From Alphaproteobacteria bacterium (GTDB taxonomy: Bacteria > Pseudomonadota > Alphaproteobacteria > Rhizobiales > GCA-2746425), in the NCBI GenBank assembly GCA_024743215.1, contig JANSWZ010000002.1, positions 496,001 through 560,000 on the forward strand: a stretch of DNA of 64,000 nt. The letters run 5' to 3'. Position numbers and translations under genes: made by a program. Under the pieces are notes generated by a model, which saw only the letters and a program-made list of their open reading frames with translations, did not search any database and was not told the DNA's origin. Each line of letters starts with the position of its first letter. The first letter of the stretch is position 1. Shown one piece after another: positions 6,382 to 42,460 of the stretch.

Positions 6382-7685
6382 CTAATTTTTCTCCACGTGA
6401 GATCGTTTCCGAACTTGATCGCCACATCATCGGGCAACAGGATGCCAAGCGTGCTGTGGCTGTTGCGCTGCGCAATCGCTGGCGCCGTATGCAACTGGAA
6501 GGGGTCATGCGCGAAGAGGTGCTGCCCAAGAACATTTTGATGATCGGGCCAACTGGCGTCGGTAAGACCGAAATTGCCCGCCGTCTGGCGAAGCTTGCCA
6601 ATGCGCCCTTCATCAAGATCGAAGCCACCAAGTTCACAGAAGTGGGCTATGTAGGCCGTGATGTGGAACAGATCATCCGCGATCTGATTGAAGTTGCGAT
6701 TGCGCAAACGCGGGAAAAGAGCCGCAAAACAGTTGAAGCCAAAGCGCATTTGCAGGCTGAAGAACGTGTGTTGGATGCTCTGGTGGGTGATACAGCCAGC
6801 CCGTCAACACGTGAATCCTTCCGCAAAAAATTGCGTGATGGCAGCATGGATGACAAGGAAATCGAGATCGAGTTGCGTGACACGTCCAGCCCGCTTGGTG
6901 GCATGGACATTCCAGGCATGCCCGGCGGCAGTGTCGGTGTCATGAACCTCAATGATCTGTTCGGCAAAGCCATGGGCGGGCGCACAAAGAAGCGCCGGGT
7001 GAGTGTGCGGGACAGTTATGGTCTGCTGTTGAGCGAAGAAGCTGACAAGATGCTTGATGAAGAGAAGGTCGTGACAGATGCCATTTCGACGGTTGAAAAT
7101 GATGGCATTGTGTTTCTCGACGAGATTGACAAAATCTGTGCGCGGGCAGATCGCGGCGGTGCAGACGTCTCCCGTGAAGGCGTTCAGCGTGACCTGCTGC
7201 CCCTGATTGAAGGCACAACAGTTGCGACCAAGCACGGACCGATCAAGACAGACCATATTCTGTTTATTGCATCGGGTGCCTTTCATGTCGCCAAACCGTC
7301 AGACCTTTTGCCGGAACTACAGGGACGTCTGCCCATTCGCGTTGAATTGCGCGCTCTGGAACAGAATGACTTTGAGCGTATTCTGACCGAAACTGAAGCC
7401 AGCTTGATAAAACAGTACAAAGCGCTGCTGGCAACGGAAGATGTCACGCTCGAATTTACCGATGATTCCATAACGGAAATTGCCCGTTTGGCCGTTCAGA
7501 TCAACGCTTCGGTGGAGAATATCGGAGCCAGACGATTGCAGACCATTTTGGAGAAGCTGCTTGAGGACATCAGTTTCACGGCAACAGACCGGAGTGGTGA
7601 AACCATCGAGATCAACGCCGAACTGGTGCGCGAAAACGTGGCTGAACTGGCAAAAGACACAGATCTCAGCCGATTCATTCTCTAG
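6378..7685 (+). CDS. hslU: HslU, AAA+ unfoldase of HslVU
   Basis: ATPase that unfolds substrates and feeds them to HslV. Walker A GPTGVGKT is at about residues 57-64, the pore loop GYVG near 90-93, Walker B IVFLDEID near 244-251, and the sensor-2 GARR near 384-387. The protein ends in RFIL, the C-terminal tail that inserts into HslV. The length of 435 residues is normal. It overlaps the preceding acetyltransferase gene by four bases. Confidence 0.97.
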
Positions 7686-7743
7686 CTGGCTATCGCCTGC
7701 AAAGTTTTTCGGGTGGGTGTGCTGCCGCTGAAGCTCTGCCAAT

Positions 7744-7786
7744 AAGGGCCTGTCGTTCAGGGTGTCTCCTTGACAGACAGGCCCTT
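7744..7786 (+). terminator. Hairpin between hslU and glnD
   Basis: A perfect 11-bp inverted repeat, AAGGGCCTGTC at 7744-7754 and GACAGGCCCTT at 7776-7786, encloses a 21-base loop and runs into TTTAAT. It is 60 bases after the hslU stop and probably ends the hslVU transcript. The loop is long and the T run short, so termination may be partial. It covers the in-frame TTG at 7770, which argues against that codon starting glnD. Confidence 0.6.
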
Positions 7787-7805
7787 TAATCTGAAAAGCG
7801 ACACC

Positions 7806-10664
7806 ATGGCTACACAAGTAAAACAGCTTCCGCTGATTGACATCAATGCGCTGAGCGAACAGCTGAACAGCATTGTCGCGAAAAATGGCGGTACCGGTGA
7901 CGCACCGGTCGTGCGCAACAAGGTGCTTGCAACCTTGAAGGAGGCCTACAAGGCCGGTTGCGCAATCGCCAAAGAAGAGTTGAATGAGAATGGCAGTGGC
8001 ACGGCCTGTGCCAAACGTCTGTCAGACATGCAGGATCTGTTGATGCGCTGCATTCTGGAGTTTGCTCTGGCTCATGTTTTCCCGACCGGCACGCCTTCCA
8101 TGGCGGAAAAGCTGTCTGTTGTGGCAGTCGGTGGTTATGGGCGCGGCACCTTAGCGCCGGGGTCTGACATCGATCTGCTGTTCGTGCTGCCCTACAAGCA
8201 GACGCCCTGGGGCGAAAGCGTTGTTGAATATCTGCTGTATCTGTTGTGGGACATGGGCTTCAAGGTTGGCCATGCTACCCGCAACATTGATGAATGTGTC
8301 CGCCTCTCCAAAACCGATATCACAATCCGCACCTCCATACTGGAAGCCCGCCATGTGTGCGGCGACCGCGAGCTGTTTGACGAATTGGAACAGAGGTTTG
8401 AAAAGGATGTGGTGCGCGGCACTGCACGAGAATTTATTGCAGCCAAGCTTGAAGAGCGGGATGATCGCCACAAACGATCCGGCGCGTCACGTTACCGGGT
8501 TGAGCCGAATATCAAAGAGGGCAAGGGCGGCCTTCGTGATCTGCACACCCTGTTCTGGATCGCAAAGTATTTCTACGGCGTTTCCAAGACGGATGAGTTG
8601 ATCAAGCTCGGCGTTTTTACCCGCAAGGAACACAATCGTTTTCTGAAATGTGAAGATTTCCTTTGGGCTGTGCGGTGCCATCTGCATTTCCTGACCGGTC
8701 GGCCCGAAGAACGCCTGTCCTTTGATGTTCAGGCAGAACTGGCGCGGCGGCTTGGTTATCAGGAACATGGCGGCCTGGTAGCGGTTGAGCGCTTCATGAA
8801 GCACTACTTCCTGATTGCCAAGGATGTGGGCGATCTAACCCGTATTTTCTGCGCCCAGCTGGAAGAGGCCGATGCAAAGGATACACCGGATCTCAACCGG
8901 CTGTTTCTCAACCTCACCGGCCGCCGCAGGCGTAAAATTCGCGGTACGACAGACTTTGTTCTGGAGACAAAGCGCATTGCTGCGGCAGATGATACGATCT
9001 TCGAGCGCGATCCGGTCAATCTGATACGTCTGTTCTGGCTGGCAGATAAACACAATCTGGCATTTCATCCAGATACGATCCAACTGGTGCGTCGGTCTCT
9101 GAAGTTCATCACCAAGCAGGTGCGTGAGGACACGGATGCCAATCGCTTGTTTCTGGACATTCTGACAAGCAAAAATCAGCCCGAAACCGTTTTACGACGT
9201 ATGAATGAGGCCGGGGTTCTGGGCCGCTTCATCCCTGATTTCGGGCGTGTCGTCGCGATGATGCAATTCAACATGTATCATCACTTTACAGTTGATGAGC
9301 ACTTGTTGCGATCCATTGGCATTCTGGCCGAAATCGAGCGTGGTGATTTGGAAGCGGAGCACCCGCTGGCCAATGAGATTTTCCCGGAAATCAAAGATCG
9401 CGTCATCCTCTATGTCGCGCTTTTCCTGCATGACATTGCCAAGGGACGTAAGGAAGACCACTCAATTGCCGGAGCCAAGGTTGCCCGTAAACTGTGCCCC
9501 CGCTTTGGTCTGACCCCAGCGCAAACCGAATTGGTGGCCTGGCTGATTGAAGAACATCTCACGATGTCTTCCATCGCCCAGTCACGTGATCTGGCCGACC
9601 GCAAGACCATTCAGGATTTTCATGCTCTGGTTCAAACCACTGAGCGCATGAAAATGCTGCTTATCCTGACCGTCTGCGATATCAAAGCTGTGGGTCCTGG
9701 TGTCTGGAATGGCTGGAAAGGTCAGCTACTGCGCACGCTTTATTATGAAACCGAACCGCTGCTCACCGGTGGCTTTACACAGGTTGCCCAAAGCGAACGC
9801 GTCAATCGCGCCAAACAACAATTGTCCCATGTGCTGATGGAAGAAAAGCGCGAGGGCGAAAAAGCCTGGAGCCAACGCCAGGTCAAGACCTATCAGAAAC
9901 TCCACTATTCGGCTTACTGGATGCGGGTGGATCCAGATGCGATGGCGCGACATGCGCGTTTTATCAATAATGCTGAATCGGAAAAGCAAACCTTTGCGAC
10001 CACTGTTCATACGAAATCATTTGAGGAAATTACCGAAATTACCGTCTATGCGCCGGACCATCCCAGGTTGCTGGCCTATGTGACCGGAGCCTGCGCCGTT
10101 GCCGGCGCAAACATTGTTGACGCACAGATTTTCACGACGACCAATGGCAAGGCGCTGGATTCCATTTTCATCAACCGGGAATTCAATGATGATGCCGATG
10201 AATTGCGCCGCGGCGCGCGCATTGGCGATCTTATTCAAGACGTGTTGAACGGGTCATTACATTTGCCGGGCGTGCTGGCCACCAAAAGCAAGAAGACACG
10301 CCGTCAAAAGGCGTTTTCGCTGGACCCTGAGGTCTCAATCGACAACACCATTTCAAATTTGTTTTCGGTTATTGAAGTCTCGGGGCTCGACCGGCTTGGT
10401 CTGCTATATGATCTGACCACAGCATTGGCTGACCTTAATCTGGACATTGCCTCAGCTCATATTGCGACTTTTGGAGAGCGGGCACTGGATGGATTTTACG
10501 TGACTGATCTGATGGGTGAGAAGATTACCGGCCCTGCCAAACACAAAGCGATCAAGGATCGGTTGATGCGAATTTTCACGACAAAGCCCGGAACGGCCGG
10601 TCATTTGCCAAATAAAAGCAAACGCAACACAACGCCGATGAACAAAAAGAGCCTGACCGTGTGA
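7806..10664 (+). CDS. glnD: GlnD, bifunctional uridylyltransferase/uridylyl-removing enzyme
   Basis: Nitrogen-status sensor that adds UMP to or removes it from PII proteins. The nucleotidyltransferase motif GGYGRGTLAPGSDIDLL is near residue 110, an HD domain with FLHDIAKGR near 540, and two ACT domains near 740 and 855 that sense glutamine. ATG 7806 gives 952 residues, a normal length. The TTG at 7770 was rejected because it lies inside a terminator-like hairpin. The end overlaps the murJ start by four bases (GTGA), the usual alphaproteobacterial arrangement. Confidence 0.96.
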   Translation: MATQVKQLPLIDINALSEQLNSIVAKNGGTGDAPVVRNKVLATLKEAYKAGCAIAKEELNENGSGTACAKRLSDMQDLLMRCILEFALAHVFPTGTPSMAEKLSVVAVGGYGRGTLAPGSDIDLLFVLPYKQTPWGESVVEYLLYLLWDMGFKVGHATRNIDECVRLSKTDITIRTSILEARHVCGDRELFDELEQRFEKDVVRGTAREFIAAKLEERDDRHKRSGASRYRVEPNIKEGKGGLRDLHTLFWIAKYFYGVSKTDELIKLGVFTRKEHNRFLKCEDFLWAVRCHLHFLTGRPEERLSFDVQAELARRLGYQEHGGLVAVERFMKHYFLIAKDVGDLTRIFCAQLEEADAKDTPDLNRLFLNLTGRRRRKIRGTTDFVLETKRIAAADDTIFERDPVNLIRLFWLADKHNLAFHPDTIQLVRRSLKFITKQVREDTDANRLFLDILTSKNQPETVLRRMNEAGVLGRFIPDFGRVVAMMQFNMYHHFTVDEHLLRSIGILAEIERGDLEAEHPLANEIFPEIKDRVILYVALFLHDIAKGRKEDHSIAGAKVARKLCPRFGLTPAQTELVAWLIEEHLTMSSIAQSRDLADRKTIQDFHALVQTTERMKMLLILTVCDIKAVGPGVWNGWKGQLLRTLYYETEPLLTGGFTQVAQSERVNRAKQQLSHVLMEEKREGEKAWSQRQVKTYQKLHYSAYWMRVDPDAMARHARFINNAESEKQTFATTVHTKSFEEITEITVYAPDHPRLLAYVTGACAVAGANIVDAQIFTTTNGKALDSIFINREFNDDADELRRGARIGDLIQDVLNGSLHLPGVLATKSKKTRRQKAFSLDPEVSIDNTISNLFSVIEVSGLDRLGLLYDLTTALADLNLDIASAHIATFGERALDGFYVTDLMGEKITGPAKHKAIKDRLMRIFTTKPGTAGHLPNKSKRNTTPMNKKSLTV

Positions 10665-34137: not shown

Positions 34138-35271
34138 CTAGCGATCAAGAATTGAGCGTAGTTCAACCAGATTGGACCGAACGCGCAAAATGTAGAAGCC
34201 GATGGTGGTCAAATGGGTTGGCATCAGCCAGCCATCTTCCTTGCCGTTGGACACAATAAAGGGATTCAGATTGATAGCGCTCAGAGTCTGAGCCTCCATC
34301 TCGGTCCATAAGGTGCCCAGCCCGCGAGAATCAATAATATCTGAAAAGTCGGCGCGGGCGCCTTTCAAGATGCCGTAATAGGCATAAAGCTGTCCTTTTG
34401 CATTCCAGAAAATATCATCGGCACGGGTGTCAAACCAACCGGCATTGTAGGCTTCCGCACGCGTCTTGAGACTTGCAGAGGTTGAACCGATATCATTGGC
34501 AATGCGGTCGATGAACTGCATCAGATTATCGGCCCGGGCGTCAAATGTGGCGTCGCAGGCAATCAGATCATCCTGATAGGCTTGCAAAGACTTGATGCCA
34601 TTGCGGTAATAGGTCTGGCTTCTGGTAGTGGGACCAAAAGGCTGGTCGCCGAACGGGTTGATGAACCATGTATATTGATTGAATTGCAGCGATCCACGTG
34701 CTGACTTCAAATTTGGATCAATCTGCGACGTGCCACGAACCCGCCCCAGCCGATCAGACATTTCAATGGCGGTACGGCCAATGGCCTGATGAATGCCGCG
34801 CTGGAATGCCGCCTTGTTGTCCATAATCCAGGTACGATCCCAGTCGATACCAAAGAAGCCAAGCTTGTAGAGCGGATTGCTGGACATCCAATTGTTGGTA
34901 TTGACGTTGAAATCAATCAGATAGCTTACCGCATCAAGGGTATAGGAACGGCCGCAGGTCAATGTCGTGTCGCTTGCGCCCTCCACTGTAACCTGATCTC
35001 CGGCCGGAACCGAGTTTGTGCTCGTTGCAAAATTGTCCGGGTAGGCTGTGTCATAGCCCCGGATCCAGGCTGCATTCCAGATCAGAAGCGCATAGCCAAT
35101 CAGAATAGGGAACACAAACAGACCCAGCGCAATACGAATCCAGAGCTTGCGCCGCATGACGAATTGATGGGCGGAACGAAACGGCCACAAAAATGCCAGC
35201 CACAAGCCTTTGGCCAATGCCACAAGACTGGCGATCAAGCCTTTAAACCCTTCAATCAATGGGTCCAGCAT
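34138..35271 (-). CDS. DUF2333-family membrane-anchored protein
   Basis: A 377-residue protein with one strong membrane segment near residues 48-70 (ALGLFVFPILIGYALLIW) and a large predicted periplasmic domain. It is conserved in alphaproteobacteria as DUF2333, with no known function. It is the first gene of the minus-strand run DUF2333-flavoprotein-M3 peptidase-mmcB. Confidence 0.75.
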   Translation of the reverse strand: MLDPLIEGFKGLIASLVALAKGLWLAFLWPFRSAHQFVMRRKLWIRIALGLFVFPILIGYALLIWNAAWIRGYDTAYPDNFATSTNSVPAGDQVTVEGASDTTLTCGRSYTLDAVSYLIDFNVNTNNWMSSNPLYKLGFFGIDWDRTWIMDNKAAFQRGIHQAIGRTAIEMSDRLGRVRGTSQIDPNLKSARGSLQFNQYTWFINPFGDQPFGPTTRSQTYYRNGIKSLQAYQDDLIACDATFDARADNLMQFIDRIANDIGSTSASLKTRAEAYNAGWFDTRADDIFWNAKGQLYAYYGILKGARADFSDIIDSRGLGTLWTEMEAQTLSAINLNPFIVSNGKEDGWLMPTHLTTIGFYILRVRSNLVELRSILDR

Positions 35272-35577
35272 CAGTCTGTCTTCCTTTTTCGATCAATGGC
35301 AAAGCCATGTGCGGCTTACTTACAGCTTCCGCATATATGGGTGTCGTTGAAGACATAGGATTTTTGCCAGAGATACACAAGAAAAGCCAACAAGCCCCCG
35401 CACCATTCCTTCCAGCGCAGATAGGATTGACTATAAGTTCACAGATTTAAACATAGTCGATCAAAAATGACGATTTATCGGTATTCCTGATCGTAAAAAG
35501 CGCAAAATGACTGAATCAGGCGTGCGAAATCAGTTTTGTATTGCGTCAGTTTCTGTCAAATTCCAAGGAGTTTGTTT
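35272..35577. other. Divergent intergenic region, no gene seen
   Basis: About 306 AT-rich bases between DUF2333 (minus) and the AraC gene (plus). It must contain both promoters, but only weak elements are visible, for example TTGACT at 35427. The ribosome binding site AAGGAG for the AraC gene is at 35565-35570. No RNA gene or strong palindrome is evident. Confidence 0.5.
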
Positions 35578-36462
35578 TTGAATGCCCATCACATGTATGA
35601 AAAACCCAACGCCGTCATTGACGAAAACCTTCTGAAACCGAGCGGGCCCGGCACGCATTTGCGGCAGAGCAGGCGCGCCTGCTTTCATAATATAATAAGC
35701 CCCATTCCGGCAATCGTCTGGATAACAAGCGGCACAAAGCGGGTTTCTGGTGCTTGCGCCAAGCGTGACATCCCATGCGGATCTTTAACATTGCTACCAG
35801 AACACCAACCAATCACGGTCGAGAATATTCCTCATGGCAACAAACCCTATGAGGCACAGGTTCTAACCATTGAGCGCAGAATTTTTGAAGCCGCCTATGA
35901 GCGGCTGATCGTTTCGGAAGAGGCACGCAAGCAAACCTTCCAGAGCGTGATGGTGAAAGACCAGATTGAAGAGGCTTTTCTGAGCGCGCGTCTGGCACTT
36001 GCCCAGCGCCACACTCTACCTGACGGCATTGTGCAAAACCGCTGCGAGGAGTTAATCCTGTGGTTGGCAGACAGTGGAGTGTTTCTGTCTTGGCCAACGG
36101 CCATTTCCTTTGCTGATCGTATCCGAAGTCTGGTGGCCGCCGATCCCGGGCGCAGATGGACATCCGCGGACGCCGGGCATGCCCTGTCACTGAGTGAAGC
36201 AAGTTTGCGCCGCAAATTGCGTGCAGAAGGGAATTCCTTCAAAGTGATTCTGCTGGAAATCCGAATGCTCATCGCGCTGTCGCTGCTTCAAACCACAAGC
36301 CACAAGGTTGCAACGATTGCGGAACAGGTGGGCTATCAATCCCAGTCGAGATTTTCCCATCGTTTCAAACAAAGGTTCGGACTAAATCCAGGCCTGTTGC
36401 GCCAACCCATTTCGACAACACCGATCCACAGCAGATCTTTAACCAAGGAACCCCAATCATGA
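35578..36462 (+). CDS. AraC-family transcriptional regulator
   Basis: A 294-residue regulator. The C-terminal double helix-turn-helix includes SLSEASLRRKLRAEGNSFK and VATIAEQVGYQSQSRFSHRF, the classic AraC signature. The N-terminal part is not a recognised sensor domain but could be a divergent cupin-like fold. TTG 35578 was chosen for the AAGGAG seven bases upstream; an upstream ATG at 35536 lacks one. It overlaps the cupin gene by four bases. Confidence 0.85.
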   Translation: MNAHHMYEKPNAVIDENLLKPSGPGTHLRQSRRACFHNIISPIPAIVWITSGTKRVSGACAKRDIPCGSLTLLPEHQPITVENIPHGNKPYEAQVLTIERRIFEAAYERLIVSEEARKQTFQSVMVKDQIEEAFLSARLALAQRHTLPDGIVQNRCEELILWLADSGVFLSWPTAISFADRIRSLVAADPGRRWTSADAGHALSLSEASLRRKLRAEGNSFKVILLEIRMLIALSLLQTTSHKVATIAEQVGYQSQSRFSHRFKQRFGLNPGLLRQPISTTPIHSRSLTKEPQS

Positions 36463-36938
36463 GCCAACCAGTTACGAAACCAGCAATTGCAGCAGTGGAT
36501 GTGGCGACTCGCTCGAAACCGTCGGTCTATCCCGACCCATTTGGTGCGCGTGTGGCAGGCCGTATCAAACGGCAATTAGGGGACTTCTTTGGCCTGCAAA
36601 ATTTTGGTGTCAATCTGACAGAATTATCGCCCGGTGCGCAGTCTGCATTGCTGCACCGCCATTCGCGGCAGGATGAGCTGATCTATATCCTCGATGGCAC
36701 ACCGACTTTGCGTACAGAGGATGGCGAACAGCTTTTGCAACCCGGCATGTGCGCAGGCTTTCCAGCTGGCGGCACGGCACATCATCTGATCAACAGAACG
36801 CAGACCATTGTGCGCTATCTTGAAATTGGGGACCGGAGCCCAGGGGATGAAGGGTCCTATCCTGAGGATGATCTGCAAGCCATCATGGAAGAGGGCAAAT
36901 GGGTGTTCAAGCACAAGGATGGCCGCGCATACGACTAG
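36459..36938 (+). CDS. Cupin-domain protein
   Basis: A 159-residue single-domain cupin. The first motif is LHRHSRQDELIYILDGTPTL and the second FPAGGTAHHLINRT, with the His and Glu metal ligands present. It is translationally coupled to the AraC gene (ATGA overlap), so it is likely that regulator's target or ligand-processing partner. Substrate unknown. Confidence 0.85.
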   Translation: MSQPVTKPAIAAVDVATRSKPSVYPDPFGARVAGRIKRQLGDFFGLQNFGVNLTELSPGAQSALLHRHSRQDELIYILDGTPTLRTEDGEQLLQPGMCAGFPAGGTAHHLINRTQTIVRYLEIGDRSPGDEGSYPEDDLQAIMEEGKWVFKHKDGRAYD

Positions 36939-36953
36939 GAGGATGAGCGGGCT

Positions 36954-38234
36954 TCAAACACCGAACAATCTCTGCCAGTGCACTTCCTTGTCCCGGAAAT
37001 AGGTGCTCTCGATCAGCGCCACGACGTAATCACGCAGATTTTCCGGATAAGTTTCATAGTCGCGGTAAAAGGCCTCCTTGTTGACCATGAAGCGCAGCAC
37101 GAAATCAAAAGGGATAAATTCTGCAATAAGGCGATTGATCAACCCGGCATCATCGTGAGCCGGGTTGGCCCGCTGCAGCAGGAAGCGCAGATCGGGGGCA
37201 ACCTTGTACAAATCGACGCTCTCTTTTGCCAACAACGCTTTTTTTGTGCGGTTGAGGAAAGACAAAACCCGGTCATTCGCCATATCGGTCGCATGAGCAT
37301 GCACCCATTTTCGTACATTGGCAGGGGTCAGCTTGCCCAAATCCGCACCGTTGCCCGACAGAGCCATGACAGCCCTCATATGCTGGTCAATGCGGTTTTC
37401 CAATACGCCTGAGTCCAGCAGCCAGTCCGGGTTCAAAGGTTCCAAACGGTCCGTCGATGTCAGATAGGCGTGGAGTGTCTTGGGGTCTGCCAGAGACAGA
37501 TACCAATTTACAGCTCGCTTTTTGCTTGGAAAAGGCGGTTCTTCAGGTTCACCCAGAACCATGTGGCCGTCCTCATCGCGCAGAATATAGACCCCGCCAA
37601 AATGGTCTGCCCAAAAGGCGTTTTTGGTAAAGCGCACATTGCGCGGCACCGGATCATTCTTGCGAATATCTCCAGTCAGCGCGGCCAGATCGATGATCTG
37701 GTCCATCAGCTTTTCATTGTTCCAGGACGTGGTTTCCCGCTCAAAACGCGCAATCAGACCCTCCAGCCTATTGGCCGCTTCCAGCACGCCATTGGCACTG
37801 TTCAAATCAAAAACAACATGGCGAATGGACAGCAGATCATCGATGGTCGTGACTGTATAGGTGTCGTCTTCGATCTCCCCGAACACCACATCCTTCAAAG
37901 TCAGAATATCAAGCGCAACGCGGTTGGTCTGGAAAAAGGACCGCATGAACTCCGGTGTTGAGGAGAAGGACACCTGCGTATAGGGCAAATCATGTTGCTT
38001 GGGGGACAGTATGATAAAGCGCGGATTGACCCGGTGCGGGTTGAGGTAATGCTGGTCGTCCAGAATATCCGCGACCTGTGGTGAGAACCCCATGGCATCA
38101 ATGAAGAACGTGTCCGGCGCCACCGGCTTGAAGCCAAACTGGGTCAACGCAGTGTTGTAATTCTTCACCAGATGAGGCTGGGAGACTTCCATCAATCCCC
38201 CATAAATCATCTTGCTGGCAATCAGGCGCTCCAT
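36954..38234 (-). CDS. DUF6638-like uncharacterised protein
   Basis: A 426-residue soluble protein without signal peptide. Its start (LIASKMIYGGLMEVSQPHLV) and the region NPRFIILSPKQHDLPYTQVSFS resemble the DUF6638 family as I recall it from Rhizobiales. No catalytic motif is recognised. Its start lies inside the end of the AAA ATPase gene (13-base overlap), so the two are co-expressed, and it is the last gene of the four-gene operon. Confidence 0.72.
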   Translation of the reverse strand: MERLIASKMIYGGLMEVSQPHLVKNYNTALTQFGFKPVAPDTFFIDAMGFSPQVADILDDQHYLNPHRVNPRFIILSPKQHDLPYTQVSFSSTPEFMRSFFQTNRVALDILTLKDVVFGEIEDDTYTVTTIDDLLSIRHVVFDLNSANGVLEAANRLEGLIARFERETTSWNNEKLMDQIIDLAALTGDIRKNDPVPRNVRFTKNAFWADHFGGVYILRDEDGHMVLGEPEEPPFPSKKRAVNWYLSLADPKTLHAYLTSTDRLEPLNPDWLLDSGVLENRIDQHMRAVMALSGNGADLGKLTPANVRKWVHAHATDMANDRVLSFLNRTKKALLAKESVDLYKVAPDLRFLLQRANPAHDDAGLINRLIAEFIPFDFVLRFMVNKEAFYRDYETYPENLRDYVVALIESTYFRDKEVHWQRLFGV

Positions 38235-40138
38235 TTGCCGTCCCGCTTCAATTGCTCCATTTCACGTTGTGCACGTTCGCGCACCCGTTGATCGCGCAAA
38301 ATTTTCTCGGTTGCCGCTTCGTCCGATTTATCGGAATAGCGGAATTCGGACGATGCATAACGATTGATCTCCTGCATCACCATTTCCATCGTGATCGGGC
38401 TTTGCAATTCCTTGATCATGGACAGCTTTTCATCATAGGGGCGATGCATGAAGCGATCCGGTGAATCAAACCACTCATCGGGCAATTCCACATCGAAGGC
38501 CCGCATCTTGATGGCGTCGGTCACGTTCTTGATGGCGCGTCCGGTGAAGCGCGGCTGTGCTTCCTTGATGGCGTGGAGATAGCGCCCGATATCTGCCATT
38601 GTCTCGGGCGTTCCATTGACCGAAATGATGTGGTCAAACACCTGCTTCAGCCCCTCTTCCTGAGGCACCATCAGATCACCATAGGCTTCTTTGGCGGCAC
38701 GCTGAATGTTCTGATTGGCATAAAGCTCGTGGTCACCCAGTTCCAGCGCGTGGTTTTTGCCCAGAAGCAGCGTGAAGATATCGACATAATCTTCGCGGGT
38801 TTGCGGTCCGTCCACCAGCCAACGCGCACCGGCCCGCTGGCGCAAGGCATCATCCACCATTTCAGGATAATTGGAGAACATGCCGAATGAGCAATTGCCG
38901 CGCACCACTGTGTTTGCGCCTGAAAAGGCATCCATCAGAACAGCGGTAATTTCCTGCTGTCCGGCAGAAGTATTATTGGCGTCAGACCGTTTTGCTGCCA
39001 CCTGATCAATATCATCAACGGTCCCAAAGCCGATGCTGCGCGGATCCAAAACCGCTTCCACAAAAGCGCGGCAGTTCTGGCCGGATTTGCCTTGATAAGA
39101 GGAAATCTGGTCGACGCCAAAATTCTGGTAGTGGAACCGGTAGCCGCCAATCTGGGCATAATCATTCATCAGACCGGCGATCATTTGAATGAGCGTGGTC
39201 TTGCCGGTACCGGGAAATCCATCGCCGATAAAGGTGAAGATGAAGCCGCCCAGTTCGACAAACGGATTCATCTGCTTGTCGAAATCATAAGCCATCAGCA
39301 TCTTTGACAGCTTCACGGCCTGATATTTAGCGATGTGATTGCCCACGACCTCATGGGTTTTCTTGAAGCTCATGGTCAGTGGTTTGCTGGCCTTGGACGG
39401 GCCGGTTTCCAGACCATCCAGTGTGAAATCATCCGCGTCGAGGCGGATATGCATTGCCTCAAAAACACCGATTTCATCAAAGCGTTGTGCGCGTTCCGAC
39501 AGGGCTTCCAGAAAGTTCTGGGCACTGGCTCTTGCGTTGGATGTCATGACGACATCGCTGTCTGCCCCATCCAGCGCTTCGTCCAAGGTTGCGACCAGAC
39601 CTTTCAGGGCATCGCGAACCGTATCGAATTGCAGGATTGGCTCGGGCTGATCGCTCTGGTTTTCGCCATTGGCAGGCAAGGCATCCAGCAAGAAGCGTGC
39701 AGCTGTGAAGGCGGCAACAAAGGAAGCGGTGTTTTGCAGATTATGGAAATGCTGGGCTGCTTCCCCGCTCAAGGCACCCGCGCGGTTTTGCTGCTGCAGC
39801 TTTTCCAACTCAGTCTGCCGGGCAAAGACATCGGCGACCGCCTGGCCAACGGCCATTCCACGGCGCAATTTATACACCAGCGCATGTTCTTCCGGCGTCA
39901 GCAGCGTATCATTTGGGTGAATGGCCTGCAGTCGCTGCAAAAAACGGATATCCCGCGCCTGTCGCTGCGGCGCTGTTGAGACCGTGCTGACAAAACGGCG
40001 CCGTGTGCCTGCAATTTCAGTCTTGGATCGGCTGCGGTCCTCAATCACCAACACACTGGTGCGTTCCAGCAAAGCCTGCATGGTGCCGACATGTTTGGTG
40101 ATGTCCTTTTCGGACAAGGTGGTTAAGCCGATATCCAT
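38222..40138 (-). CDS. Classic-type AAA ATPase with long N-terminal domain
   Basis: A 638-residue ATPase. Walker A GFPGTGKTT is at residues 307-315, a Walker B-like acidic strand GTVDDID at 372-378, and sensor-1 Asn in MFSNYPEM near 423. Arginine-finger candidates ALRQRAGAR follow at 431-439. About 290 residues precede the ATPase core and may form a partner- or substrate-binding domain; the last 40 residues are highly charged and helical. It is not FtsH, ClpX, MoxR or RuvB. It sits third in a compact operon with two unknown proteins and a coiled-coil protein. Role unknown; a remodelling ATPase is the likely class. Confidence 0.82.
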   Translation of the reverse strand: MDIGLTTLSEKDITKHVGTMQALLERTSVLVIEDRSRSKTEIAGTRRRFVSTVSTAPQRQARDIRFLQRLQAIHPNDTLLTPEEHALVYKLRRGMAVGQAVADVFARQTELEKLQQQNRAGALSGEAAQHFHNLQNTASFVAAFTAARFLLDALPANGENQSDQPEPILQFDTVRDALKGLVATLDEALDGADSDVVMTSNARASAQNFLEALSERAQRFDEIGVFEAMHIRLDADDFTLDGLETGPSKASKPLTMSFKKTHEVVGNHIAKYQAVKLSKMLMAYDFDKQMNPFVELGGFIFTFIGDGFPGTGKTTLIQMIAGLMNDYAQIGGYRFHYQNFGVDQISSYQGKSGQNCRAFVEAVLDPRSIGFGTVDDIDQVAAKRSDANNTSAGQQEITAVLMDAFSGANTVVRGNCSFGMFSNYPEMVDDALRQRAGARWLVDGPQTREDYVDIFTLLLGKNHALELGDHELYANQNIQRAAKEAYGDLMVPQEEGLKQVFDHIISVNGTPETMADIGRYLHAIKEAQPRFTGRAIKNVTDAIKMRAFDVELPDEWFDSPDRFMHRPYDEKLSMIKELQSPITMEMVMQEINRYASSEFRYSDKSDEAATEKILRDQRVRERAQREMEQLKRDGKWSA

Positions 40139-40164
40139 GATACTTATTCCCTATATTCTGTCGT

Positions 40165-41352
40165 TCAGACCTGCCGGATTATATCGTCTTCACTGACAAT
40201 GGAGCACTGATAGCGCCCAAAAACCTCAGCCGCCATGCCGCTGGCATAGACCGCCTGGTAAGCTGCATGCGGGACCAGCGCATGATATTCCACCGCACTG
40301 ACGCCCTGTTGGACACAATCAATATCATCGGTGTTGATGTGAAAAATCTGTTCTGGCGGGCTCTGGCTCCAGAACCGTCGCTGGCCGGGTTTTTCGCTTT
40401 CCGAAAACAGCTCCTGCATGGTCCAGGTCAGAAGCCAGCTGTCACCTGTGGCATCCACCTTGTCCAACAATCCCTGCACCAGTTCATTGTGCTTGGTAAT
40501 ACCACCGGCATAAAAGGGTCCCAACACAAAGCGGCGCAATTGTTTGGGATGCAGATTGTCAAAGGCATTGTCCAGCGCCGTACCGATGGTGGTCAGCGTC
40601 AGGCTGTAAGAGGAATTGGCTTCCAGAAACTTTGTGAATTCCGCCGAGAGTTCCCTGTTTGGCAGCCCATCCATGCCTTGCTCCGCCTTGCTGCGCAAAG
40701 GTTTGCCCGAAGGGGGACGAATGGCTTCGTTGAATATGAGCGCTGCCTTACCAGCAGCCACTTCCCTGGAGGAATCCTCCACCACCATTGTGTAGAGCAA
40801 AGGCATATTGGCGGTGCCATCATAAGTGGACCAATAGACCACATAATAGGGTCGATCATTTTTCGGGTTTTTGGAAATGCGGATGGTTTTGGGGGGTGTG
40901 AATGCAGGGAAAATTCCATCAAGTGCCGCCACGCGACGCAGTTCCTGATAAAACAGTCGCTCGGCCATCTGCTTTTGCAACGCTTCCGGCTTCTTGCGGG
41001 CCGACAACATCTGATCGACCATCTTGCGTTTGATCGTGGTCGGGTTTGGCAGGGCTTTCAGCCGTTCCTGGGCCTGATTTTCGGCTTCGGAAAGTGCCAT
41101 GATTTCCTGCAAGACAGGAAACCCGCTTTCATTGAGATCGATGCGAAACCGATCCTGATAGCGGGCCTGCAACGCAAAGGCGTTGGTGGAATTTTCCAGC
41201 CGTGTCAGATTGGCGGTCATGACCGCGCCCAGAATGTCGTGAGGCCGTGCGCCCCATGGACCCTGATCGCGCGATACGACAGCGCGTTCCAGAAAGACAA
41301 TGGCCGATTTCAACGCATTGAAATAGCGCACCAGAACCGATTGCGAACTCAC
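40165..41352 (-). CDS. Uncharacterised operon protein
   Basis: A 395-residue soluble protein that I do not recognise. The N-terminal third is helical (LKSAIVFLERAVVSR), the middle has a likely beta-rich part (RPYYVVYWSTYDGTANMPLL) and no cysteine-rich or P-loop motif is seen. It starts 22 bases after the coiled-coil gene and ends 26 bases before the AAA gene, so it is part of the operon. No function is proposed. Confidence 0.7.
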   Translation of the reverse strand: MSSQSVLVRYFNALKSAIVFLERAVVSRDQGPWGARPHDILGAVMTANLTRLENSTNAFALQARYQDRFRIDLNESGFPVLQEIMALSEAENQAQERLKALPNPTTIKRKMVDQMLSARKKPEALQKQMAERLFYQELRRVAALDGIFPAFTPPKTIRISKNPKNDRPYYVVYWSTYDGTANMPLLYTMVVEDSSREVAAGKAALIFNEAIRPPSGKPLRSKAEQGMDGLPNRELSAEFTKFLEANSSYSLTLTTIGTALDNAFDNLHPKQLRRFVLGPFYAGGITKHNELVQGLLDKVDATGDSWLLTWTMQELFSESEKPGQRRFWSQSPPEQIFHINTDDIDCVQQGVSAVEYHALVPHAAYQAVYASGMAAEVFGRYQCSIVSEDDIIRQV

Positions 41353-41374
41353 AGAGAACCCCTAAAAGTCTCGA

Positions 41375-42460
41375 CTAGGACGCGTTGTATTCTGCGGCCT
41401 GATGCTTGTCCATAACGTCGGAGAAGCGCCGTGTAAACGCATCATCAGCCAGTTGCTTGCGGCGCTGGATTTCCGCGGAATTGACCATGGACTGCTCATG
41501 CATCTCCAATAGGTCGGCAATGTGAGACTGCGCCGCAGCGCCAATGCCAGCCATGGTCTGTTCTGCGGCCAGATCAACCTTGGACCCCAGCGTGTTGATC
41601 TTGTGAGCAACATCCTGCTGGGCAGCTGTTTTCAACGAGTCTTCCAGCGATTTGTACAATACAATGCGCTGTTCCGTATCGATTTTCAGCTTGTTGATCA
41701 GCGTGTTCTGTGCGGCAATCTGATTGTTCAGACTGTCGATGAAAGTCTGGAACATCGACGTATAGCGCTCCAGGGTCTGGGAGGCCGCCAGCAATTCCTG
41801 CTCCTTGGCCTGTGCCTGATTGTAATCGGTTGCCATTTCAGAGCGTTTTGTTTCCAGTTCTGTCCGCTCCTGCTGGTCGGTGGTGGCCGCAATCTGATTC
41901 TCAAGATCCATCAGCGCCGGGTTCAGATCTTCAATCTTCTGCTGGGTTTCCTGCAGAGCATCGGTGGTTGCCTGACGGCGATCCAGCACAGTACGCAGGC
42001 TGGATTCCGACGTCTCATAGCGGGTTTCCAGAACCGATTTCTGGTTGGTCAGAATGCCAACAATCGTATCTGATTTTGACAGAAGATCCTGCAGATTACC
42101 GCCCAGAGACGTGGTGCGCACCCGCTCATTGCGCATGGATTTGGCTTTGTTCTGAGAGAACATGCCAATGAATTTTTCCATGCCGGTAAATGTCTGCATG
42201 TTCTTGAATTCAGCGCCGAAAGAGTTGGTGACATCTTCAAGACTCAGAATAAGGTCAGCAATATTGCCTTCCATCACCTTCTGCTGGCCCAGGACATCCT
42301 GAATGCGGGCATTCTCGATGTCGAAATCGACTTCCATGACACTATCACTGGCTGCCATGGTGTCCAGCACTTCGGAAGACTGATCAATCTTCGAGCGCAT
42401 CTCTTCCACCATCTCACGTGTTTTTTCAATTTCCTGATCAAACTGCTGAATACCGGCCAT
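41375..42460 (-). CDS. Coiled-coil protein, TelA-like
   Basis: A 361-residue, largely helical protein. Heptad-rich segments span roughly residues 1-60 and 130-320. The middle MRNERVRTTSLGGNLQDLL and the closing RRKQLADDAFTRRF are reminiscent of the toxic-anion-resistance (TelA) group, but the match is by eye. ATG 42460 follows GGGGG at a five-base spacing; the frame is open to 42493. First gene of the operon. Confidence 0.7.
   Translation of the reverse strand: MAGIQQFDQEIEKTREMVEEMRSKIDQSSEVLDTMAASDSVMEVDFDIENARIQDVLGQQKVMEGNIADLILSLEDVTNSFGAEFKNMQTFTGMEKFIGMFSQNKAKSMRNERVRTTSLGGNLQDLLSKSDTIVGILTNQKSVLETRYETSESSLRTVLDRRQATTDALQETQQKIEDLNPALMDLENQIAATTDQQERTELETKRSEMATDYNQAQAKEQELLAASQTLERYTSMFQTFIDSLNNQIAAQNTLINKLKIDTEQRIVLYKSLEDSLKTAAQQDVAHKINTLGSKVDLAAEQTMAGIGAAAQSHIADLLEMHEQSMVNSAEIQRRKQLADDAFTRRFSDVMDKHQAAEYNAS

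Follow-up and report, generated by a model that had tools for sequence, protein, structure and literature searches.

A conserved AAA ATPase operon with a membrane-protein gene and a variable cargo slot, a candidate conflict or defence module of Alphaproteobacteria

A four-gene operon in the window (the whole 64,000-nucleotide stretch of DNA analysed here) belongs to a conserved module with a fixed gene set and order, an ATPase with invariant motifs and a gene for a membrane-protein partner. In relatives one of its junctions is a slot of variable content, and three of its genes are absent together from four genomes. The conserved order, the co-occurrence of its first gene with its fourth, the cargo of the slot, an unrelated last gene in a second branch, a patchy distribution and a phage-like carrier lead us to prefer the reading that a modular system of conflict or defence has this module as its core; this reading is unproven, and we hold it tentatively, at slightly less than even confidence.

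Results

Layout and conservation of the operon

The four genes encode a coiled-coil protein (CC), a 395-residue protein (U395), an AAA ATPase (AAA) and a DUF6638 protein. An earlier note had described them as a compact minus-strand operon, and its positions were all reproduced (Table 1), together with the gaps of 22 and 26 bases that separate CC, U395 and AAA and the overlap of the last two genes. That the operon is real, and not a chance assembly, is confirmed by its relatives: CC, U395, AAA, DUF6638 and a fifth gene, DUF2333, lie on one strand and in this order in all 69 fully flanked Hyphomicrobiales loci. These are the loci with enough flanking sequence among the best 80 of at least 467 relatives of the ATPase, a sample that leans to close relatives and in which the gene calls are mechanical open reading frames (ORFs). 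The remaining 11 of the 80 have every gene that is present on the sequence examined in order.

Co-occurrence, which the earlier note had named as a check, was also found across genomes. In a sample of the phylum, 26 of 398 genomes have DUF6638 and CC accompanies it in all 26, some of which contributed sequences to the CC search model. DUF6638 is rare in a sample of the class, with scores over the cutoff in 5 of 289 genomes.

Table 1. Features of the operon and its surroundings in the window, and of the ATPase (residue numbers)
Feature	Position	Strand	Remarks
DUF2333 membrane protein (PF10095)	34138-35271	minus	Pfam 71.1 bits, cutoff 22; fifth member, displaced in the window
AraC-type regulator	35536-36462	plus	between DUF6638 and DUF2333
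Cupin	36459-36938	plus	between DUF6638 and DUF2333
DUF6638 protein (PF20343)	36954-38234	minus	426 aa
AAA/DUF6638 junction	38222-38234	minus	overlap of 13 bases; cargo slot, variable in relatives and empty in the window
AAA ATPase	38222-40138	minus	638 aa
U395	40165-41352	minus	395 aa; GTG start
CC	41375-42460	minus	361 aa from ATG at 42460; first gene; listed frame opens at TTG, 42493
AAA N-terminal region	about 270 aa		no family match
AAA Walker A, GDGFPGTGKTT	residues 305-315		invariant in 25 aligned homologues
AAA SYQGKS	around Y348		Y348-Q-G-K invariant in 25 aligned homologues
AAA Walker B, DDID	residues 375-378		D375, D376 and D378 invariant in 25 aligned homologues
AAA sensor Asn, arginine fingers, R534	N423; R433/R435/R439; R534		invariant in 25 aligned homologues

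The ATPase

The ATPase matches the Pfam AAA family (PF00004; 43.7 bits, cutoff 21.2, E 4.8e-11), and the columns that are invariant among 25 homologues bear out the earlier identification of a Walker A, a DDID motif, a sensor asparagine and arginine fingers. Tyrosine 348 occupies what we take to be the pore-loop-1 position, and a GR motif lies presumably at the sensor-2 position. The best matches among solved structures are VCP-like and proteasomal ATPases. The aromatic residue at the pore-loop position, the invariant motifs and these structural matches together fit a substrate-threading enzyme, and threading would be its predicted activity. The protein shares with the classic AAA unfoldases and remodellers (VCP/Cdc48-like, proteasomal Rpt, TRIP13/Pch2) the AAA domain itself, the Walker A, the sensor asparagine, the arginine fingers, the aromatic residue at the pore-loop position and the GR motif. 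It differs from them in its long unmatched N-terminal region, in a Walker B with DD in place of DE (the catalytic glutamate is an aspartate in all 25 homologues) and in having dedicated partners in U395, DUF6638 and CC.

The partner proteins

The DUF6638 protein, so labelled by resemblance in the earlier note, is a clear member of PF20343 (212.4 bits, cutoff 27, E 1.4e-62). Its predicted structure (AF2 mean pLDDT 88.6) gave no convincing match in the PDB, and a literature search by family name turned up no paper. U395, previously described as unrecognised, indeed has no Pfam, NCBIfam or PADLOC match at E ≤ 1, and its two PHROG matches are at chance level; it is predicted to consist of a helical N-terminal part and a C-terminal part of beta-beta-alpha-alpha-beta-beta order that is weakly T-fold-like. 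Profiles of CC, U395, DUF6638 and DUF2333 found no significant match among PDB sequences. The five module proteins showed at most weak AAA or coiled-coil similarity in NCBIfam, PADLOC and PHROGs, and an Rfam search of three loci (L094, L014 and L007) gave no matches.

CC is a predicted coiled-coil protein in which no hydrophobic segment was detected and for which no Pfam family scores above its cutoff. It had been labelled TelA-like, with a suggested role in toxic-anion tolerance. As a candidate TelA (PF05816) member it was rejected: there is no TelA match at E ≤ 1 in Pfam, and the profile-profile probability is just 4-9%. CC does resemble TelA in being a long helical protein with a faint profile similarity, scoring 27.9 in a profile comparison with 14 TelA proteins against at most 23.9 for all 16 controls. 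With divergent CC added, its profile scores 31.0 against at most 29.4 for 40 shuffles, a thin margin, and an unrelated DUF2333 alignment reaches 24.4 in the same type of comparison. Moreover, no TelA was found in the window's own genome, and in genomes with the module TelA is present as a gene apart from it. As TelA membership is not supported, the suggestion of toxic-anion tolerance is without basis here, and a TelA-type toxic-anion or envelope-stress system is very unlikely.

A membrane protein as last gene

The count of four members in the earlier note missed DUF2333, the fifth member in this branch. In the window it is displaced by an AraC/cupin pair on the opposite strand, which is probably outside the module, since a relative with a 93% identical ATPase (L014) has just a single 159-aa opposite-strand ORF at that place. 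In Sinorhizobium meliloti Ak57, the DUF2333 gene follows DUF6638 directly and closes the operon. The protein has two hydrophobic N-terminal stretches and then a domain with two cysteines, C106 and C239, that are nearly invariant in Rhizobiales and with which a periplasmic location of this domain would fit. Outside the module DUF2333 is common, being found in 98 of the 398 genomes of the phylum sample, mostly without DUF6638. Fourteen such loci (L164-L177) have DUF2333 without the other four genes nearby, and their neighbours include no partner common to all.

A second branch is represented by 53 loci, 50 of them from family f24 and three from other families. In 51 of these the same four genes are accompanied by DUF1523, a membrane protein unrelated to DUF2333. 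DUF1523 has hydrophobic segments near the N-terminus and, in three of four proteins checked, also near the C-terminus. Among the first 13 loci of this branch, all have DUF1523 and 10 have a protein of about 88 residues, with two hydrophobic segments in both of the two checked. The two loci without CC, U395 and AAA are L195, which stops at a contig end, and L213, which does not. The latter, from an 85%-complete genome, has DUF6638 and DUF1523 with no CC, U395 or AAA within 9 kb upstream; either the module is incomplete there or the assembly is faulty.

Reduced operons and a possible CC-ATPase contact

Four genomes from family f161 (loci L160-L163; genera g226 and g237) have CC next to DUF2333 and lack U395, AAA and DUF6638 in the examined stretch; DUF6638 is absent from the whole genome in each case. 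These reduced operons look as if they lie at the same chromosomal address as the complete ones, with a thymidine-kinase-like ORF before them and, after them, a 559-aa ORF that resembles the usual downstream gene, both identified by eye. The f161 CC proteins align to about column 273 and then lack, or have lost, a block (about 271-310, SLKTAAQQxVAHKIN...) whose conservation is high wherever the system is complete. As the block is missing where U395, AAA and DUF6638 are all missing, the simplest reading is that residues 271-310 serve the ATPase complex and the remainder of CC the membrane side. Natural operons of CC and DUF2333 only make the proposed contact directly testable.

Distribution, and plasmid and phage-like carriers

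The module is patchily distributed (59 of 129 genomes in family f24). Its four-gene core is found, with no DUF2333 within 19 kb, on three megaplasmids of Vibrio and on a plasmid of Rhizobium leguminosarum (L012). All five genes are present on a 359-kb phage-like contig from IMG/VR (L094), with DUF2333 upstream of CC and with SmpB, DnaJ, peptide deformylase and a phage-type exonuclease as neighbours. The phage identity of this contig rests mainly on gene content, because the terminase model phrog_2 matched nothing in the record and the match to a T4-type capsid protein (gp23) is short, at 41 positions. Single-domain FliG-middle-like and FliM-like genes also lie near the module on this contig (515-1422; Pfam E 5e-17 and 3e-22). 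Scans of viral contigs with the ATPase, CC and DUF6638 returned L094 and one other CC match, at the end of contig L143, which may be host flank; a comparison of AAA with phage records gave no match.

Together, these data strongly contradict the view that the four genes only happen to lie side by side and function separately. The frequent occurrence of DUF2333 without DUF6638 and, in L213, a DUF6638 with no CC, U395 or AAA nearby agree with that view; the gene order of the fully flanked loci, the presence of CC in every DUF6638 genome of the phylum sample and the intact four-gene core on the Vibrio megaplasmids and the phage-like contig speak against it, and make it most improbable.

A variable slot between AAA and DUF6638

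The junction at which the last two genes of the window overlap is at least 250 bp long in 38 of the 69 complete Hyphomicrobiales loci, and holds a typed cassette in 36: a DUF559 nuclease in 23, ParE with a helix-turn-helix (HTH) protein in four, ParE with an RHH protein in four, PIN with Phd in three, and HicB and PLD in one each. One further DUF559 gene (L064), in the slot by its midpoint and unassigned in a later search, is counted in the tree labels, which therefore include 24. The cargo types were confirmed by Pfam on representatives. All cassettes but HicB and PLD, 34 of 36, are co-directional with the operon. A search for such genes gave 47 ORF matches in 27 kb of slot against one weak HTH match in 983 kb of flanks, with models built from slot genes, which other kinds of toxin in the flanks would escape. 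The slot has no cassette in 31 of the 69 complete systems, nor in the window; thus, cargo is not required. Its state changes at least 21 times on the ATPase tree of 69 rows, a quick tree in which 17 of 66 inner branches are weak.

The earlier note had seen no adjacent toxin or nuclease gene and had on that account not called a defence system. The observation stands for the window, whose slot is empty; it does not extend to many relatives, in which toxin-antitoxin pairs, nucleases or proteins of the Abi type occupy this position.

At the other junctions of the 69 loci, cargo is rare. The U395-AAA junction holds four Fic genes and one DUF559, and the two others hold no typed cargo. Fic-type genes at the U395-AAA junction were noted in L042 (9207-9998) and L036, by Pfam, and in L045, L046 and L064, by sequence. 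In Rhizobium setariae (L076), an SPFH/Band 7 protein (7636-8577; PF01145, E 3e-29) is encoded between CC and U395.

Lengths of 250 bp or more are reached in the DUF1523 branch by 40 of 51 AAA-DUF6638 junctions but by only two of 51 U395-AAA junctions; the corresponding counts are 22 of 51 for CC-U395 and 49 of 51 for DUF6638-DUF1523, the latter owing partly to the 88-aa gene. Among ORFs of 90 aa or more, the longest one in the slot is on the operon strand in 33 of the 40 loci and on the opposite strand in three; four slots have no such ORF. Same-strand slot ORFs of this size, present in 36 of the 51 loci, fall into 22 sequence clusters; 23 of the 36 have a family match or recur, and 13 do neither. 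Among the slot proteins are one putAbiC protein (E 3.4e-16), from a cluster of four whose other members align outside that domain, one AbiJ_NTD4, a DUF3825, a DrmA-like protein, one HNH-like protein (under the Pfam cutoff), two with DUF4145 similarity (likewise under the cutoff) and a small membrane protein that recurs in eight loci. Many of the slot proteins match no family.

Mobility of the cargo and the housekeeping alternative

Terminal inverted repeats were found at all 23 DUF559 cassettes tested, with scores of 52-116 against at most 31 for shuffled sequence. The distances of DUF559 correlate poorly with those of the ATPase (r 0.40, against 0.99 for DUF6638). These two properties indicate that the DUF559 cassettes are probably mobile. 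Repeats of this kind are lacking at the 13 other Hyphomicrobiales cassettes and in 28 of the 32 slots examined from the DUF1523 branch; in the remaining four (L186, L191, L196 and L203) the repeat score tops the shuffled maximum by 1-10 points. Examples of DUF559 genes with long terminal inverted repeats are those of L032 (11908-12471), L054 (9091-9653) and L059 (11908-12456). Two slots without a DUF559 gene, in L027 and L056, have kept similar palindromes.

The probable mobility of DUF559 makes hitchhiking a serious rival. The AAA-CC-membrane complex may be a housekeeping or stress machine for the upkeep of the inner membrane or envelope. The junction would then be a permissive hotspot for small selfish cassettes, such as DUF559 nucleases with flanking repeats and toxin-antitoxin pairs, that are kept through expression of the operon. 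The inverted repeats of the DUF559 cassettes, the many empty slots and a possibly common rhizobial neighbourhood render this explanation, itself short of even odds, nearly as likely as the conflict or defence reading. It accounts less readily for typed Hyphomicrobiales cargo that is nearly confined to a single junction out of four and nearly always co-directional, for the cassettes without inverted repeats and for the unrelated genes that fill the same slot in the second branch; the patchy distribution also argues against a housekeeping role.

Many rhizobial copies may indeed lie in one common housekeeping neighbourhood. In S. meliloti the operon is preceded by thymidine kinase and followed by formate-THF ligase, and a cluster of downstream genes of the same size, presumably the same gene, is found in 46 of 77 loci. 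The Ak57 record (L008, 3.7 Mb) is labelled pSymB and holds a trpE leader, a hemoglobin receptor and fhs genes; it may be mislabelled. We take these genes to be chromosomal in S. meliloti strain 1021. The hemoglobin-receptor gene of the Ak57 record lies three genes beyond DUF2333. The housekeeping explanation also draws on a ChvI-binding DNA fragment, one of 27, that is placed inside S. meliloti SMc02733 in the consulted sections of PMC3687685, which report no ChvI regulation of this gene. Gene numbering from SMc02726, identified as shmR in PMC8343143, and the position of the hemoglobin-receptor gene suggest that SMc02733 is probably within this operon.

Discussion

The proposal of the earlier note, a dedicated remodelling machine built from the AAA ATPase, a helical partner and uncharacterised proteins, gained support from the co-occurrence of the genes and from the membrane partner that has been added. 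In the preferred reading, the conflict or defence one, the module would be a machine of the inner membrane that uses ATP to remodel protein. The ATPase and its two partners, U395 and DUF6638, would act on the coiled-coil CC and remodel it, and CC would in turn be linked to the membrane protein DUF2333, or to DUF1523 in the other branch. This core may have a sensing or executing role at the envelope. Interchangeable accessory toxins that serve it as effectors, as opposed to hitchhikers, may be carried in the AAA-DUF6638 slot. Against an effector role, the toxin-antitoxin pairs in the slot look self-contained. Further points against the preferred reading are the empty slots, the repeats and poor co-variation of the DUF559 cassettes with the ATPase, the absence of more than weak PADLOC similarity, the slot ORFs of the DUF1523 branch with neither family nor recurrence, the looseness of other junctions in that branch, the loci that depart from the gene set (L213, L012 and the three Vibrio loci) and the aspartate in place of the catalytic glutamate. 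The wider proposal of an unrecognised and widespread alphaproteobacterial immune or conflict system, in which a membrane-linked AAA machine controls or backs up an interchangeable toxin in a fixed slot and whose core has also been acquired by a jumbo phage and by Vibrio megaplasmids, is possible and is advanced with more reserve.

Among known systems, none of the system-specific models of PADLOC-DB 2023 matched the five proteins, which gave weak AAA or coiled-coil similarity only. In type I restriction operons a gene for an anticodon nuclease such as PrrC may be embedded, and the module is similar to them as a conserved operon with an optional embedded toxin gene; however, no restriction, modification or DNA-recognition family is found in the module core, and the resemblance is one of layout only. 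The PADLOC IetA and TRIP13 models show weak similarity to the AAA domain (E about 1e-4). IetAS and TRIP13-containing defence systems have subtilisin, HORMA or CD-NTase partners, whereas none of these was found in the module core. ESCRT-III/Vps4 also combines an AAA enzyme, a helical partner and a membrane, but no MIT or Snf7 family is among the module's Pfam matches; it is named here as an analogy for a possible mode of action, with no claim of membership.

The analysis ties five families, four of them without a significant match to solved structures, into one machine that occurs in Alphaproteobacteria, on Vibrio megaplasmids and on a phage-like contig, and the function of this one operon would therefore bear on hundreds of unannotated genes. 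If the slot holds hitchhikers, it would be a striking insertion hotspot inside an operon; if it holds effectors, the module would represent a new architecture of toxin-carrying defence.
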